Of a stretch of 22,500 nt of DNA, positions 4,744 to 22,353 are shown piece after piece. The position numbers were made by a program, and so were the translations under genes. Within the stretch, counting starts at the first letter, position 1; every line of letters begins with the position of its first letter. The notes under the pieces were generated by a model that saw nothing but the letters and a program-made list of their open reading frames with translations, was not told the origin of the DNA and did no database searches. The DNA is from a virus: IMG/VR virus record IMGVR_UViG_3300025671_000587, positions 1-22,500 of that record. The stretch is one strand, 5' to 3'.

Positions 4744-5187
4744 TTATGTAGTATCTACCTTAACACCTGCTTTTTCCATCTGTTCGTTGATATTATTAAA
4801 GAAAGAATCTAACTTACCTTGAACTACATTGGTATTGATGTATTGGTCTAATGCAAACTTAAACTCAGGTGATTCTGCAGCAATCTCTGCAAAGGGTCTC
4901 TTACCCATTTTGTATGTACCATTGTGTACATACTTTCCATAAGGTGCTCCATTGGGTGCGATATCAAAAGAAAATACAATCTGTTCTGTGTTCTTATCTT
5001 TTCTAAAGATGTTAGATATCCTATTCTCAGAAGCAATAGAACTAAGTAATCTACCAGTCTTGTATGCTTTAGATGAACCTGTCTTATAGTTTTTATAAGG
5101 TACACCAGGATTGATTGCTTGGAGTGCCTTATCTTTATAGACCTTTGCTACATCTTTTAAACTCTTTTGTTTACCTCGTATTGCCAT
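4744..5187 (-). CDS. HK97-gp10-like neck/tail completion protein (147 aa)
   Basis: The protein has the layout of the HK97 gp10-like family, small proteins at the head-tail joint. A basic N-terminal helix (MAIRGKQKSLKDVAKVYKDK) is followed by a TGRLLSSIASE segment near residue 45. Then comes the family-like core APYGKYVHNGTYKMGKRPF (about 80-98) and a closing amphipathic helix (SPEFKFALDQYINTNVVQGK). The Tyr-x-x-(x)-Val-His-x-Gly-Thr...Arg-Pro-Phe pattern is the strongest evidence. Its length is normal for the family. The ATG overlaps the stop of the upstream 1344-residue gene by 1 nt. An overlapping 85-residue ORF in another frame at 4848-5105 is a shadow of this gene. Confidence 0.65.
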   Translation of the reverse strand: MAIRGKQKSLKDVAKVYKDKALQAINPGVPYKNYKTGSSKAYKTGRLLSSIASENRISNIFRKDKNTEQIVFSFDIAPNGAPYGKYVHNGTYKMGKRPFAEIAAESPEFKFALDQYINTNVVQGKLDSFFNNINEQMEKAGVKVDTT

Positions 5188-8100
5188 TAGTACCTCGGAT
5201 ATAATAAATCATCGTTATGTCTCATCTCATCCCATGTTAGAGATGCTGTATAGATTGCAGTTAAGTTAAAGGTTGAATCATCACCTAAACCAATTGCAAT
5301 ATTACCAGAAACAGGTCTATCTTCTAAACAATCATTCCATCCACTTAAAGATGAAGTTACATTTGTCATAAATCTACCACCACCAAATGATGGAGTTCTA
5401 TCTTCATATATAAACAATGAGTTTTGAGATGCATTAGTATAACTTACAGTTCTGGTAGCTCCAGTACTAACTATACGTTCAAATGAATGAGTGTATGCAC
5501 ATAAATCAGTATCATAGTAAAGACTAACTAACTTTTTACTTGCAAATGGACTATAACCAGGCATATTAAAGGTAGTATTTGAATCTCTTCCGTTATATAA
5601 TTCAGCATCAGGATAATAAGAACCAGTTCCTACATAAGTAACAAGTAAACCTGTTGAACCTGTTACTGGTCCTATTGATGCAACAACATATCCTGTATTA
5701 TACCCTTCACCATCTTTTACTACTATTGTTGTACTTTCGTTGTTAAGGGGATTTACAAATGTAAATGGTTTATCTCCAATTGGGTCATTAACTTCTACTT
5801 CATATACATTAGCACTTGTTCTATTTCCATATGTTACACTATAATCAGAATAGTTTGTAGGTTGCCATGCAGGATAATATTGAGGTATATTTAATGATGA
5901 TGAGTTAAAGTTAAATGTCAACGATTTATCATCTATTGTTTCATTTACAGTAGCCGAACCACTATAACCATCAACATACCAAAGTAATTCATTTGTGTTT
6001 TGGTTATAAGAGAACTGAGATATATGGAATCCTTGTCTTGGTACAAAGTCTCCTGCTGTATCAGGTTCTGTTACAATTTCTGTATCACCTACTCTAATTA
6101 CAATTGCTTCATCGTAAGTTGCTCTATCACCTGCATACATACCAAATGATGATGTACCAAATGTTTCATCAGATATAAGTGGATATGAATTAGATGCAGT
6201 ATCATATATTACGTTATTACTAAACCAAGTAGTTATAACTGATATTTCAGATTGTGTTGATTCTGTTTCTGTGCTAATATATGGGTGTAATGAAGAACTT
6301 ATAACTTCTAACGAACCACTACCATCCAATACAGTAGTGTTATACTCCCATCCTTGTTCGTTTCCTAACGAAGCAGTACCTTCGTTCCATAAAGAATAAA
6401 CAAGAGAACCTGTACCATCATATGAATCTTTAGAGTACATATCGTAGTATTGTGATAAACCTCTATAAGTTATAAAATCAACAGGTGATGTGTTTGGTTT
6501 CCACTTGTAGTTAATGATAACTACTCCACTACCACCTTCACTATTTAAATTAGATGCACCACCTCCAGCACCATATTGTGTTCCTCTTGAATCACCATTT
6601 AATGAAGAATCTCCTCCTCCACCTCTACCACCATCAGATGGTCCGCCTGGTCCATATCCTGCACCACCACCTGCGAAATATATAGGTGTTCCTAATATTG
6701 AAGATTGAATACCATCTCCACCTTTTCCACCTTTTGCAGTAAGTCCTGCAGAACCGGATTCTCCATTTTGACCAGCTCCACCACCACCACCAGCAGAACC
6801 TGTTGGTTGTGTTAGTGAACCACTCCAACCATTTCCACCTGTTGTTTGTGCATTTGGATTATCAGGTACTTTCCAAGATACATTATATGGAGGGAGTAAA
6901 CTACTATTTTTATCTACACCGGCACCTCCACCCATAGAACCACTTACATCATTTGGAGCAGTTTGAATACCACCACTTGCTCCTTGTGCACCTTTATCTG
7001 CTATTATTTCATAATGAGATGCTGTAAATATTGTTTCTTCAGCGTAGTAGAATGGAGATTTATTACCACCTCTACCTGCTTGTATGTAGTAATCTCCTAT
7101 TTCATTACAAAGTTGTAAAGTGGTTTCAATAACTTGTCCAGCACCTCCACCACCACCATATACCCAAACATCTTGAGGGTCAATTGGTCTAGCATCTACA
7201 TATGCATCTCCTCCTGCTCCACCTCCACCAATTATTAAAACATTAGCATCGTTAAATCCGGATATTACTGAGAATGTTGCAAAAGAAGCTGTATTATCAA
7301 AAATATGATATTTGTATATCCATTCATTACCAATACCTGAACCACTAACGAATGTACCTTCTATACCACCACTTGCAGAAATAATACCAGGCTGTATTGG
7401 GTCACAATCATAATATGTGTAACAAGATGAACCTGTTGTGAAATCTACATTCTGGTCTTGGTACGATGTACTAAAAGATGCAGAAGGTAAGTAGTTAGAG
7501 TAAGGGATATCATCATCAAAATCATTTGAGAATGCACCAAAACGAGTTTCGAAGTAACTCTCACTATCATGGTTGTTGTATCTCGATGATGTAATGTAAT
7601 CTTGTGATGATGTCCAATGTATTGTTGTATCAGGATACTTGTAGTATGGAAGAGGGTTAGTTCTTCCACTAGAACCACTTATATCGAATCCTATGTATAT
7701 ACCAGCAGGTGCTGATTCCTTACAAGGTCCACAAGTTTCCCATCCTTCGAATGGAACGTATGCTTTACATTCTGAACCTGTTGTAAATGTTACAGTTCCA
7801 CTACCACTTGGTAATGAAGCCATTTGTTTTTCTGGTGAGAACTTATATTGGTCTGAACTACTAACAGGTAACTCTACCTCTCTCCACCATAGTTCAGCAG
7901 TTTTACTTCTACCACTTATGTACATATCAAAAGGTGTATCTAATGCACAGATACAAGCTTGTTTACCTGCAGGAACTGTAAGAGTTTCTATTCTTACTTC
8001 ACCACAAGGTATAAAACTAAATGTACCTCCTGTTGCTCCTCCATCTATATAATGTAATTTACCACTTGTTAATTGTGAGCCAGTTAATGCATATGTTATA

Positions 8101-9221
8101 ATTGCTTCACCTGGTGTTCCACTTGTATATCCTAAATCATCTATCCAACCACCTTGATTATATCCTGGAGGTGATGGTAAATCATAATTACTTAAAGGTA
8201 TATTAGCGGTTAATCCATTTCCCCCAACTCCTTTTACAAAGTTTCTTTGAGAACCAGATATAAAAAGGCCTTGAGGTGAGAAAGTACCTAAATTTTCATA
8301 AGTAAATTGTCCATTACCTCCTGGTGAATAATCTTCTTCATATCCTCTAATGAACTCTTCTATTTTTACTCCACCAGTTCTAGTACTAGTACCAGCACCA
8401 CCAGCTCCTCCACCTCCACCTGCACGAAGATTTGCAGGTACATTATCACCTCCATCGTTTCCTTGATTTCTAAAGGGATATTCTACTGAACCTGAATCTC
8501 CATTTGATGGAGAACATACAGAACCATCTGCACTATGACCACCTCCACCACCAGAACCACCATCTCCTGCGTTAAATGTTCTTATTTCGTAGTGTGGTCC
8601 TACTTGTCCACAATCATCGAATGGGTTAATAATCCACTCAGAATATGAACCAAATCCACCACCACCAGCTTTAATTAAAACAGAATCATAATCATATCTT
8701 GATGAGGTTGCAGAACCAGATGGTAAATCTGCATCATTGGCTAATCTAAATGGATATCTAAGTGTTGTATCTTCACCGTTTGAAAAAGTACCTTGATTGT
8801 TAAAATTAGTTGAATCAATAAATCCGTTTTGAAATCCACCTGCACCAATGGTGATTGGATATTTACCTGGTACAATTTGTAAAGAACCTGTTAGTTCTCT
8901 ATCAGGGTTTATAAATAAAACTCCACCAGCTCCACCACCACCTGCACCACCTAACATTCCACCTGCAGGGTAATTTGGTGGGTTCTGAGCTACTGATTGT
9001 GATGGAATAAATCCTCCACTACCTCCACCACCTACCATGAAGAGTTGAGTAGAATCAGTACAACCTTGATGAACTTCAAACTCATATTGGCCTGTGTTCC
9101 ATCCAAAGTAATGAACTCTACGAATCTGTGAACCTGTTATATAATCATATACAACATCTCCACCAGAAGCAGAGATTTCAGATGTTAAACAATCTTCTAA
9201 TACTGGCTTTGGTATGTACAT
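5187..9221 (-). CDS. Large glycine-rich virion adhesin/receptor-binding candidate (1344 aa)
   Basis: Several regions are visible. After a short lead, residues about 60-385 are glycine-rich, with repeated GGGGSGG and GGAGGGGAGG strings and the phrase YPITIGAGG. Residues about 390-650 form a non-glycine-rich region with Cys pairs (IPCGEV, ACICAL, WETCGPCKES, CYTYYDCDP) and much Ser/Gly. Residues about 660-905 are a second glycine-rich domain (LIIGGGGAGGDAY to GGSGVVIINYKW). From about 915 to the end the sequence looks like a concanavalin/LamG-type beta sandwich, closing with AIYTASLTWDEMRHNDDLL. Glycine-rich domains built this way are known in phage adhesins, where they form polyglycine-II bundles (for example gp38 of S16-like phages). 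Receptor binding is therefore the likely role. The gene lies between another fibre-like gene (3 nt away) and the neck gene (1-nt overlap). Several open frames inside it on either strand come from the repeated GGN codons. Confidence 0.7.
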   Translation of the reverse strand: MYIPKPVLEDCLTSEISASGGDVVYDYITGSQIRRVHYFGWNTGQYEFEVHQGCTDSTQLFMVGGGGSGGFIPSQSVAQNPPNYPAGGMLGGAGGGGAGGVLFINPDRELTGSLQIVPGKYPITIGAGGFQNGFIDSTNFNNQGTFSNGEDTTLRYPFRLANDADLPSGSATSSRYDYDSVLIKAGGGGFGSYSEWIINPFDDCGQVGPHYEIRTFNAGDGGSGGGGGHSADGSVCSPSNGDSGSVEYPFRNQGNDGGDNVPANLRAGGGGGAGGAGTSTRTGGVKIEEFIRGYEEDYSPGGNGQFTYENLGTFSPQGLFISGSQRNFVKGVGGNGLTANIPLSNYDLPSPPGYNQGGWIDDLGYTSGTPGEAIITYALTGSQLTSGKLHYIDGGATGGTFSFIPCGEVRIETLTVPAGKQACICALDTPFDMYISGRSKTAELWWREVELPVSSSDQYKFSPEKQMASLPSGSGTVTFTTGSECKAYVPFEGWETCGPCKESAPAGIYIGFDISGSSGRTNPLPYYKYPDTTIHWTSSQDYITSSRYNNHDSESYFETRFGAFSNDFDDDIPYSNYLPSASFSTSYQDQNVDFTTGSSCYTYYDCDPIQPGIISASGGIEGTFVSGSGIGNEWIYKYHIFDNTASFATFSVISGFNDANVLIIGGGGAGGDAYVDARPIDPQDVWVYGGGGGAGQVIETTLQLCNEIGDYYIQAGRGGNKSPFYYAEETIFTASHYEIIADKGAQGASGGIQTAPNDVSGSMGGGAGVDKNSSLLPPYNVSWKVPDNPNAQTTGGNGWSGSLTQPTGSAGGGGGAGQNGESGSAGLTAKGGKGGDGIQSSILGTPIYFAGGGAGYGPGGPSDGGRGGGGDSSLNGDSRGTQYGAGGGASNLNSEGGSGVVIINYKWKPNTSPVDFITYRGLSQYYDMYSKDSYDGTGSLVYSLWNEGTASLGNEQGWEYNTTVLDGSGSLEVISSSLHPYISTETESTQSEISVITTWFSNNVIYDTASNSYPLISDETFGTSSFGMYAGDRATYDEAIVIRVGDTEIVTEPDTAGDFVPRQGFHISQFSYNQNTNELLWYVDGYSGSATVNETIDDKSLTFNFNSSSLNIPQYYPAWQPTNYSDYSVTYGNRTSANVYEVEVNDPIGDKPFTFVNPLNNESTTIVVKDGEGYNTGYVVASIGPVTGSTGLLVTYVGTGSYYPDAELYNGRDSNTTFNMPGYSPFASKKLVSLYYDTDLCAYTHSFERIVSTGATRTVSYTNASQNSLFIYEDRTPSFGGGRFMTNVTSSLSGWNDCLEDRPVSGNIAIGLGDDSTFNLTAIYTASLTWDEMRHNDDLLYPRY

Positions 9222-10825: not shown

Positions 10826-11719
10826 TTAAGTGTACTGCCACTTTCTTAATGCTTCATCTATATGTCCACCATCCCATCGTTCAGGAGTTGTACTCCATAC
10901 TTTGGGAGATATCCAAAGTTCACAATTCTCACAAGTTTCATAATCCTCGTAAGGAAGAGCTAAAACAGGAAGATTGTAAAAATCCCAATCATCTCTACCT
11001 TCTATCTCTTCTAATATTTCAAAACATCTTAGATACTCATAAGATGTTAAATCTACTCTTGCGTTCGGTGTATATTTGGTACTGAATACCTGTCCTACCG
11101 AACCTGTTGTATTTAATACTGCATTGTATAACTCACTTGTTTCACAATCTTGTATTTTAAAATACTGCCCCTCAGGGGCTATCAAAAAAAAAAGACAACG
11201 GTTTTTATCGTTGTGACAAGTTAGGTTGAATGTTGCTGACCAACCAGCCAACCCATTATCAAACCTATCCACGAAGGGTTCACAACTGATATCACCGAAT
11301 ATCTCAAATCCCTCTACTTTATTTTGTGTGTATGATGTTAAATCATTTATTACTGCTAATGTATTAGCATGTATATCAACCACATCATCAGTGCCATAAT
11401 AAGGAACTGATTGTTCATTCGTTCTCCCATCACTTTCGTTCTGTAATACTTTATGTTTATCTGCAACAATGAGTTGAATACGATAATCTGTTGTACTCTG
11501 TCCAAAGGTTGCATCTTGTATCATCACATTACCAACAGGATACTCTGGAAATTGCATATTATCTATTGAGAACACATCTCCTTGAGTTACATGAGAAATC
11601 GAAGGATGGTTCTTCATTATAGTTTTAAAGAAGTTAAGAGTGTTGTAATACAACGTAAAGTTTGTATCACCTTTCTTAACTATCTGTGCCTGTGCTGGTG
11701 TTTGTGATGGTGTACTCAT
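10826..11719 (-). CDS. Tail completion/terminator-like protein with 118-residue extension beyond a T10 run (297 aa)
   Basis: Residues 1-178 look like the tail-completion or minor tail proteins of Bacteroidota phages. FFKTIMKNHPSISHVTQGDV lies at about 30-50, IQLIVADKHKVLQNESDG at about 82-99, and RFDNGLAGWSATFNLTCHND-KNRC at about 152-175. As I know the family, the protein normally ends within a few residues of that last motif. Here codons 176-179 (CTT TTT TTT TTG) contain ten consecutive T, and the 0 frame continues for 118 more residues. That part has no Met. It carries Cys-containing beta-type sequence (KIQDCETSELY, YEYLRCFEI, ETCENCELWISPK). In the -1 frame translation stops after 4 more residues (182 aa). 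In the +1 frame it stops at once at TGA TAG (178 aa). Both short and long products are thus possible. The gene lies 3 nt after the DUF6712-like connector gene. Confidence 0.6.
   Translation of the reverse strand: MSTPSQTPAQAQIVKKGDTNFTLYYNTLNFFKTIMKNHPSISHVTQGDVFSIDNMQFPEYPVGNVMIQDATFGQSTTDYRIQLIVADKHKVLQNESDGRTNEQSVPYYGTDDVVDIHANTLAVINDLTSYTQNKVEGFEIFGDISCEPFVDRFDNGLAGWSATFNLTCHNDKNRCLFFLIAPEGQYFKIQDCETSELYNAVLNTTGSVGQVFSTKYTPNARVDLTSYEYLRCFEILEEIEGRDDWDFYNLPVLALPYEDYETCENCELWISPKVWSTTPERWDGGHIDEALRKWQYT
11167..11194 (-). promoter_or_regulatory. Candidate slippage/frameshift element: T10 run plus GC hairpin
   Basis: On the coding strand, CTTTTTTTTTT (11194-11184) provides the heptamer T_TTT_TTT in the 0 frame. 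Four bases later (GATA) comes a perfect hairpin, GCCCC-TGA-GGGGC (11179-11167), with five G-C pairs in otherwise AT-rich DNA. A slippery heptamer followed at short distance by a stem is the standard layout of a -1 ribosomal frameshift signal. A T10 run can also cause RNA polymerase slippage. Both alternative frames meet stops at once: -1 at 11174-11172, inside the hairpin loop, and +1 at 11184-11182. It is not a terminator for this strand, because the T-run precedes the stem. Confidence 0.5.
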
Positions 11720-19514: not shown

Positions 19515-19543
19515 CCTATAACAAACTTAACGAGGTTTATATT
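19515..19543 (-). promoter_or_regulatory. Candidate promoter motif upstream of the Cys-rich and fibre genes
   Basis: On the coding strand ATATAA is followed by 12 bases and TTGTTATAGG, the same spacing as the motifs at 13885 and 16226. This copy also fits the Bacteroidota -7 box, as TAAGTTTG matches TAnnTTTG. It starts 12 bases before the ATG and overlaps the last codons of the -1 frame of the chaperone gene. No clear TTG at -33 is seen. Confidence 0.4.
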
Positions 19544-20305
19544 TGTTCATATGTTCCTTATGGATAAGTTTTTCCATTAAGGCTTTATCAGATAGGTATG
19601 CGAGGTAGAGTAAACATTCCTCTAAGGGTTTACGAGTTATCTCATCAAACTTTAAGATATCTTCTCCTGCAAGTTGGACAACTGTTGAATAGCTTCCCCA
19701 CTTTCTTCCAAAATTGACTTGATGTTGGGTGATATCTCCATCTGGTTCTTCAAAGAGTTCAGGGTACCTTTCACTAAGTCCTTGTATAAACGAATAAAGA
19801 AAAAAAAACAGCCAAAGTGAAAATCCATTCCCACATCCCACCATTTATCTTCATCCCATGGTTCTACTCCATTGTATTGTTCTATCTCATAGAGTGCTCC
19901 TTTGGTTTTCTTTATAGGTCTGTATAAGATAGATAAGATAGTTGGCCATTCATTATTGAGTTGTATATTCTCAAACTTAGAGATATCCAAGTATGCTCCA
20001 TAAGGCATTGTACTCAAGTTAGGTTCAAACCCATACTCAGTATCACCAATGGTTATTCTTCGTTGTAAAGGATAATCTGTCTTTCCTAAGAGTTTAGTTA
20101 AATCTTGTCTGATATTTGATATAACATCACTATCTAACTCTTTAACCATATCAGGAGTTATTCCTGTCAGGTTATATACCAAGAATGCATCTTGTGCTTC
20201 AGTATCACCTTCGTGAGTATCTAAATCTTTTTGTAATTGAATATATTGTTTTAGTGATATTGCACTAAAATCATTGGGTACTGTTATCTCTATCTGTTTC
20301 TTCAT
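19527..20305 (-). CDS. Tail assembly chaperone-like protein, long form by -1 frameshift (predicted 259 aa)
   Basis: The predicted product joins residues 1-168 of the 217-residue frame to 91 residues of the -1 frame at the T9 run (19808-19800). The -1 part (SERYPELFEEPDGDITQHQV, then GRKWGSYSTVVQLAGEDILK, then EITRKPLEECLLYLAYLSDK) has good protein character. It resembles the short helical domain that I know follows this protein in Bacteroidota phages. Downstream of the slip site it has no Met until near its end. Two overlapping products made by a -1 shift are the hallmark of tail assembly chaperones (lambda gpG/gpGT), which load onto the tape measure. The alternative is independent initiation at an ATG at 19844 in the -1 frame, giving 105 residues. 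Position right after the terminase genes, far from the tape measure, is unusual for a chaperone. Confidence 0.55.
19652..20305 (-). CDS. Tail assembly chaperone-like protein, short 0-frame form (217 aa)
   Basis: The 0-frame product begins MKKQIEITVPNDFSAISLKQ and continues YIQLQKDLDTHEGDTEAQDA. Its centre has LQRRITIGDTEYGFEPNLST and PYGAYLDISKFENIQLNNEW, then an ILYRPIKK phrase. After the slip site it continues YKDLVKGTLNSLKNQMEISP and ends SGEAIQQLSNLQEKIS. I recall this whole length, including the end, as a conserved protein of Bacteroidota phages, so the 0-frame product is real and not simply a read-past. It is soluble, mixed alpha/beta. The gene overlaps the preceding coiled-coil gene by 35 nt. 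Bases 19652-19799 are read in two frames, so both ends are under selection. The chaperone role is inferred from the frameshift architecture, not from a catalytic motif. Confidence 0.7.
   Translation of the reverse strand: MKKQIEITVPNDFSAISLKQYIQLQKDLDTHEGDTEAQDAFLVYNLTGITPDMVKELDSDVISNIRQDLTKLLGKTDYPLQRRITIGDTEYGFEPNLSTMPYGAYLDISKFENIQLNNEWPTILSILYRPIKKTKGALYEIEQYNGVEPWDEDKWWDVGMDFHFGCFFFFIRLYKDLVKGTLNSLKNQMEISPNIKSILEESGEAIQQLSNLQEKIS
19799..19810 (-). promoter_or_regulatory. Candidate -1 frameshift slippery site (T9 run)
   Basis: The coding strand reads TGT TTT TTT TTC TTT in the 0 frame, so the run contains the canonical heptamer T_TTT_TTT. A -1 slip changes the downstream reading to TTT CTT TAT TCG and opens 91 codons to a stop at 19527. 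I see no strong hairpin just downstream, unlike the T10 site at 11184. Long T-runs also permit transcriptional slippage. Confidence 0.55.
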
Positions 20306-22059: not shown

Positions 22060-22353
22060 TTAGTAAAGAGTGTATTGAACTAATAACTCTTCTCCTTCAC
22101 TTATCTTTCTAATACTATGCAAAGTTCTTATTGTCAACCCTTCTTTTATTATACAGTTAGGATTATCTGAATGATTGATAAAACCTCCTAATGGTGTTCT
22201 AATTATCTCATCTTCTATCCAATGGTGTGTTATACCAAATGAATGATTATCGTTTATCTCAGTTGTTGTAAATAACCCCAGTCCATCTATATTAGATTGT
22301 TTTATGGTTACTTCATTTGGTAAAGGTCTATATGTACCTTTAAAATCCTTCAC
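22060..22353 (-). CDS. Miniature SET-domain protein, putative protein lysine methyltransferase (97 aa)
   Basis: SET domains transfer methyl groups from S-adenosylmethionine to lysines. The order of motifs fits. IDGLGLFTTTEI (about residues 23-34) matches the start motif G-x-G-L/V-F. FINHSDNPNC (about 59-68) contains the NHS...PNC core that binds SAM and forms the pseudoknot. ISEGEELLVQYTLY (the last 14) matches GEEL-x-x-x-Y with the catalytic Tyr position kept; the usual Asp/Asn before that Tyr is Gln here. At 97 residues it is smaller than the 119-residue chlorovirus vSET, and the SET-I insert and post-SET Cys are missing. The start is GTG: an in-frame TGA lies five codons upstream and no ATG is available. 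AGAAGG lies about 10 nt before it. It follows a Lys-rich gene by 2 nt. Confidence 0.75.
   Translation of the reverse strand: MKDFKGTYRPLPNEVTIKQSNIDGLGLFTTTEINDNHSFGITHHWIEDEIIRTPLGGFINHSDNPNCIIKEGLTIRTLHSIRKISEGEELLVQYTLY

Follow-up and report, generated by a model that had tools for sequence, protein, structure and literature searches.

A run of ten T's and the stem-loop directly before it, both within the gene of a predicted phage tail terminator, probably form a programmed transcriptional slippage site, judging from comparison of the homologous genes. The T10 run, the stem, the stops in both shifted frames and the correspondence between short and long forms are conserved and selected at the base level. 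We infer from these features that slippage occurs, that it is RNA polymerase and not the ribosome that slips, and that both forms are built into the virion. A sequence-only reading of this DNA had proposed that the T run switches the protein between a short and an extended form, in a layout inverse to that of the usual frameshift. This switch was supported, the 0 frame being long and both shifted frames short, and slippage of RNA polymerase is more likely than the ribosomal frameshift that had been envisaged.

The window, that is, the whole 22.5-kb stretch of DNA analysed, is a tailed-phage fragment from a virus record. Its genes for terminase, portal and DUF6712 proteins and for a tail-fibre-like protein all lie on the minus strand. 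The closest cultured relatives are the Nonlabens phages P12024S/L by portal (37% identity) and Flavobacterium phages by terminase (38%), so the host probably belongs to the Bacteroidota. A small protein encoded at 22060-22353 (minus strand) matches the SET domain (Pfam PF00856, E = 4e-8), and a large protein at 5187-9221 (minus strand) contains a Gly_rich_2 domain, a domain that is fused behind the extension of the T10 gene in one homologue (L329). Rfam and tRNA scans found nothing.

The gene carrying the slip site (10826-11719, minus strand) encodes 297 aa, with a tail-terminator-like N-domain at residues ~20-170 and a C-terminal extension of 118 residues. The T10 run was located at 11184-11193 on the minus strand (A10 on the plus strand), where codons 176-179 read CTT TTT TTT TTG. 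It is followed by GATA and then by GCCCCTGAGGGGC (11167-11179, minus strand), a GCCCC-TGA-GGGGC hairpin. By frame reading, the loss of one T (T9) or the gain of two (T12) leads immediately to a TGA (11182-11184, minus strand), and the gain of one T (T11), or a -1 shift of the ribosome, leads to F-D-S-P and then to a TGA (11172-11174, minus strand). Only the 0 frame encodes the extension (residues 180-297; 10829-11182, minus strand), with no Met among its 118 residues. The sequence-only reading had described the slip site exactly but missed the conserved stem-loop ACAACG-ATAAAAAC-CGTTGT (11195-11214, minus strand) that ends one base 5' of the run and that we propose as a nascent-RNA stimulator. 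The T10 run exceeds chance, since only two homopolymers of at least 7 bases are present on either strand of the 22.5 kb (the T10 and a T9 at 19800-19808) and about 0.1 A-runs of at least 10 are expected.

Protein-level searches combined with DNA-pattern scans of IMG/VR led to a set of 372 loci with 223 distinct gene copies. Exactly ten T's, after C or A, are found in 177 of the 181 in-frame long copies, and in none of the 37 dedicated short copies, which have at most five T's there. Such conservation of an A/T homopolymer of at least 9 bases across divergent homologues is expected of programmed transcriptional slippage. The dedicated short genes end 5-19 residues after Cys175 of the NDKNRC motif, mostly as LF[D/E]LYPN, in agreement with the earlier statement that proteins with this motif usually stop near here. 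Full-length homologues with a normal codon mix at the site, which would have spoken against a switch, amount to four long copies (L245, L337, L343 and L367). In these four, residue 178 is Asp and not Phe (LFDL), and the short genes mostly have Asp or Glu at this position (LF[DE]L). These replacements argue that the run is maintained for its bases and not for its amino acids, and that Phe178 of the T10 copies is dictated by the run.

The codons that make up the run point in the same direction. Leu176 is encoded by CTT in 173 of the 177 T10 copies (the rest have ATT) and in 73/73 representatives having Leu, and CTT accounts for 13% of Leu codons elsewhere in the genes. Synonymous bias could be tested at 137 codons; it is strongest at L176, which opens the T10, and next strongest at R174, with H169 fifth. 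A coincidence or a constraint on the protein, in which LFFL is required and AT-rich codon use yields ten T's, would account for LFFL being nearly invariant in long copies and for TTT being the common Phe codon (77%). To this explanation we give almost no credence: by the sequences, it is already contradicted by the use of CTT, as well as by the LFDL of the four T-less long copies. Across the family, the choice of synonymous codons is also atypical in a second patch at residues 151-158 (D151, R152, L157 and A158; approximately window positions 11246-11269).

Four further contigs have a T9 (L021, L086 and L106) or a T11 (L112), which cuts the 0 frame short. These could reflect phase variation, with replication slippage giving subpopulations of genomes, T9/T11 making the short form only and T10 the long form. 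Very similar T10 sequences are among the matches for L021, L106 and L112, and stops in both frames would serve phase variation too. However, run lengths are extremely uniform (177 T10 against four others), unlike the wide variation of contingency loci; phase variation gives the adjacent conserved stem no role; and some of the four contigs may be assembly errors. We consider phase variation quite improbable.

The stops in the shifted frames are themselves selected. In the T9 frame, a stop follows immediately in 173/175 long copies, and in the T11 frame a stop is reached at most about five codons past the run in 175/175. Among 128 unique sequences, 125 have a T11-frame stop by codon index 8, against 57.7 ± 5.2 under synonymous resampling, and 126 have the T9-frame stop, against 115.8 ± 2.6. 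The slip site ranks first along the gene for stops in the two shifted frames (0.99 of 74 representatives, against a mean of 0.05). After thinning at 85% identity to 46 lineages, a first-codon T9 stop remains in 45, and the third base of codon 180 is T in 34 of the 36 lineages where T creates the stop (39% in the control, p = 3e-12). The bias for the T9 (+1) stop is weaker in this thinned set, with TTG before G in 0/11 (p = 0.08) and before A in 16/34 (p = 0.003). In different lineages the T11 and T9 frames are closed by different stops. The shifted mRNAs thus encode a defined product through their prompt stops, as is expected for slippage, and the shifted products correspond to the natural short genes of relatives.

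Directly 5' of the run, the homologues share a stem of the form CAAYGA-loop-TCGTTG, with folding energies of -5.9 to -7.1 kcal/mol for common variants. All five core pairs are present in 165/175 long T10 copies, versus 16% of random synonymous sequences; they are present in 0/4 long copies without T10 and in 32/37 short copies. Arg174, in the 3' arm, is nearly always CGT and His169 nearly always CAC; in the T10 copies found by protein search only, Arg174 is CGT in 149/156 (2% elsewhere in the genes) and His169 is CAC in 154/156 (27% elsewhere), with loop codon 172 more variable. The weakest stem codon combination is nearly absent (1/77 versus 21/59), and the p-values of these stem-codon tests treat related sequences as independent. 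The codon choices indicate that the stem is under selection at the base level, and a conserved stem in this position is also what is expected from the Roseiflexus type of slippage described below. Short copies without a T run, for example L330, L094 and L229, keep the stem with its CAC...CGT codons, and it may therefore serve a different or a further function.

The GCCCC-TGA-GGGGC hairpin 3' of the run behaves differently from the upstream stem. It had been proposed as the stimulator, with its conservation to be checked by alignment; it is found only in the closest relatives and in L022 and is lost in most other homologues. It was therefore ruled out as a slippage stimulator, the conserved structure being the stem 5' of the run.

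These positions also bear on programmed -1 ribosomal frameshifting, in which the HIV-like heptamer U_UUU_UUR would produce the short form in the manner of E. coli dnaX. All T10 copies carry T_TTT_TTR in frame, and the -1 stops are the strongest stop signal. Yet the CTT of L176 is invariant although it lies upstream of, and outside, any -1 heptamer; -1 frameshifting would require no more of the run than its final six T's plus R, usually together with a 3' structure, and no conserved 3' stimulatory structure was found when judged on the GC hairpin alone. The conserved 5' stem would be inside the ribosome at the moment of the shift, and the +1 stops are kept too. We therefore regard ribosomal frameshifting as unlikely. 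The possibility was also considered that the stem and U-tract form a weak intrinsic terminator attenuating the downstream tail genes, the stops merely limiting damage from incidental slippage. A simple terminator scan does flag the stem and T10, and slippage sites and terminators have features in common (Penno 2015, as cited in PMC5009743). However, the stem contains only some three G-C pairs. The site is also internal to an ORF, and 177 copies conserve the part downstream of it in frame; termination does not need strongly selected prompt stops in the T11 frame, and T10 does not occur in the dedicated short copies. Attenuation is thus very improbable in our estimation.

Programmed transcriptional slippage accommodates these features as follows. 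While RNA polymerase copies the T10, the RNA:DNA hybrid would be entirely rU:dA, the 10 nt spanning the whole hybrid, and the nascent stem-loop would stand just outside it; with both, a share of transcripts would gain or lose U's. The unshifted mRNA (and those changed by ±3) would give the 297-aa decorated terminator, and other indels would lead to a stop within about five codons and so to a plain terminator of ~178-182 aa, a form for which related phages have a separate short gene. The number of appendages on the hexameric cap could then be below six. Slippage on A/T runs in E. coli and Buchnera mostly inserts a single base (PMC5574713), which corresponds here to the T11 frame, the frame with the strongest stop signal, and this fits transcriptional slippage.

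Short and long genes were also found side by side. At 40 loci a short and a long copy are neighbours, and the long copy has T10 in 39 of them, so a dedicated short gene would not simply make the short isoform superfluous. Tandem paralogues with the dedicated short gene directly followed by the long gene were observed in L034, L047, L052, L074, L094, L107, L111, L126, L222 and L245, among others. We rejected the notion that only loci with a dedicated short gene lose T10, because 39 of the 40 tandem loci keep it. For three of the four T-less long genes no short copy was found in their contig, so three long-only lineages lost T10 without one and the switch is not universal. In a tree of the N-domain built with the slip site excluded, the short forms are scattered in several places among the T10 clades; this gives 5 to 7 independent pairs, and in nearly all of them T10 accompanies the extension (p ~0.06). 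The run is also retained where further modules are fused to the extension, namely a Gly_rich_2 domain in L329 and a Lcl_C-like stretch, below the cut-off, in L324.

The 297-aa protein has no family in Pfam, and its single match in PHROGs is weak and to an unnamed group (phrog_30964). No relative was found in bacterial genomes, and tblastn against annotated phages gave no match. Gp09 of the Nonlabens phages P12024S/L, at a similar position, is without a T run, and relatedness was not obvious by eye. AlphaFold2 on 92 sequences gave a model of moderate confidence (pLDDT 68) in which residues 172-182 fall below 50, so the slip site sits in a probable linker. The N-domain is predicted to fold as an alpha helix, a four-strand sheet and an alpha helix, and Foldseek matched it to tail terminators: lambda gpU (3fz2, E = 2e-4) as well as T5 p142, Mu and the pyocin collar. 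It thus models as a lambda gpU-like tail terminator, in place of the tail-completion protein suggested earlier. Tail terminators form hexameric rings with very poor sequence conservation among them; comparison with the solved terminators gave chance hits only, so the fold evidence stands alone. In BFVD, similar folds occur in proteins whose lengths differ greatly and many of which have long C-termini. The extension was modelled with a pLDDT of 74 and had no significant match in the PDB. Four Cys are invariant in the extension (10829-11182, minus strand) across 77 sequences, two of them in a CxxC, and a metal site or disulphides are possible. The extension may be a surface appendage or module.

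Several known systems resemble parts of this arrangement. According to PMC5009743, transcriptional slippage at 9 T's in the Thermus thermophilus dnaX gene (tau/gamma), where a stop follows in either shifted frame, gives a short form beside the long 0-frame form. The phage site shares the long 0 frame, the T homopolymer, the nearby stops in both shifted frames and the shorter shifted product. It differs in that dnaX is a bacterial replication gene with a run of nine, whose slippage was shown by experiment in that account, whereas the phage site has a T10 and its slippage is inferred. The passage on dnaX in that paper describes no 5' stem-loop, and the phage site has one. In a Roseiflexus IS transposase, a nascent-RNA 5' stem-loop promotes slippage (Penno 2015, as cited in that paper). 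There too an inverted repeat lies directly 5' of the slippery tract in a terminator-like layout, but the tract is a T5C5 heteropolymer, the stem is GC-rich and a one-base deletion gives the transposase, whereas the phage has a T10 behind a weak stem, and its shifted product would be short. As in SPP1, where a translational frameshift adds a domain to the major tail protein (gp17.1/gp17.1*; PMC8718954), one gene of a tail ring protein would yield plain and C-terminally extended forms. In SPP1, however, the shift adds a domain to a tail-tube protein, and here it would remove one from a modelled terminator. Finally, the predicted fold and the position after a DUF6712 gene in the head-tail region are like those of tail terminators such as lambda gpU and T5 p142; the protein studied here differs in having no sequence match to the solved terminators and in carrying an extra conserved C-terminal domain.

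The other long homopolymer of the window is the T9 at 19800-19808, within 19527-20305 (minus strand), where two overlapping ORFs, the C part in the -1 frame, are joined over the run. A T9 or T10 is present in 18/18 homologues covering it (L373-L390), with the phase of the run differing among them. From the sequence, it resembles the frameshifts of tail-assembly chaperones, here placed on a homopolymer. With this second conserved site in the genome, homopolymer slippage may be a standard mode of expression of these phages.

Productive use of transcriptional slippage is known from few cases in bacteria, and a search of open-access papers found none in a virion gene of a tailed phage. Gene callers give only the long product, and the short one would be missed. 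The ~180 natural variants, with four natural losses and 37 dedicated short copies, make the run length, the stem and the stops each testable. Whether the stem-loop and T10 cassette is a widespread and ancient transcriptional slippage switch in a large, uncultured and probably Bacteroidota-infecting group of tailed phages, setting the proportions of plain and appendage-bearing subunits in the terminator ring, and the first such switch in a tailed-phage structural gene, is in our view an evenly balanced question. Such a switch points to a way in which only some of the like subunits in a ring could bear an appendage.
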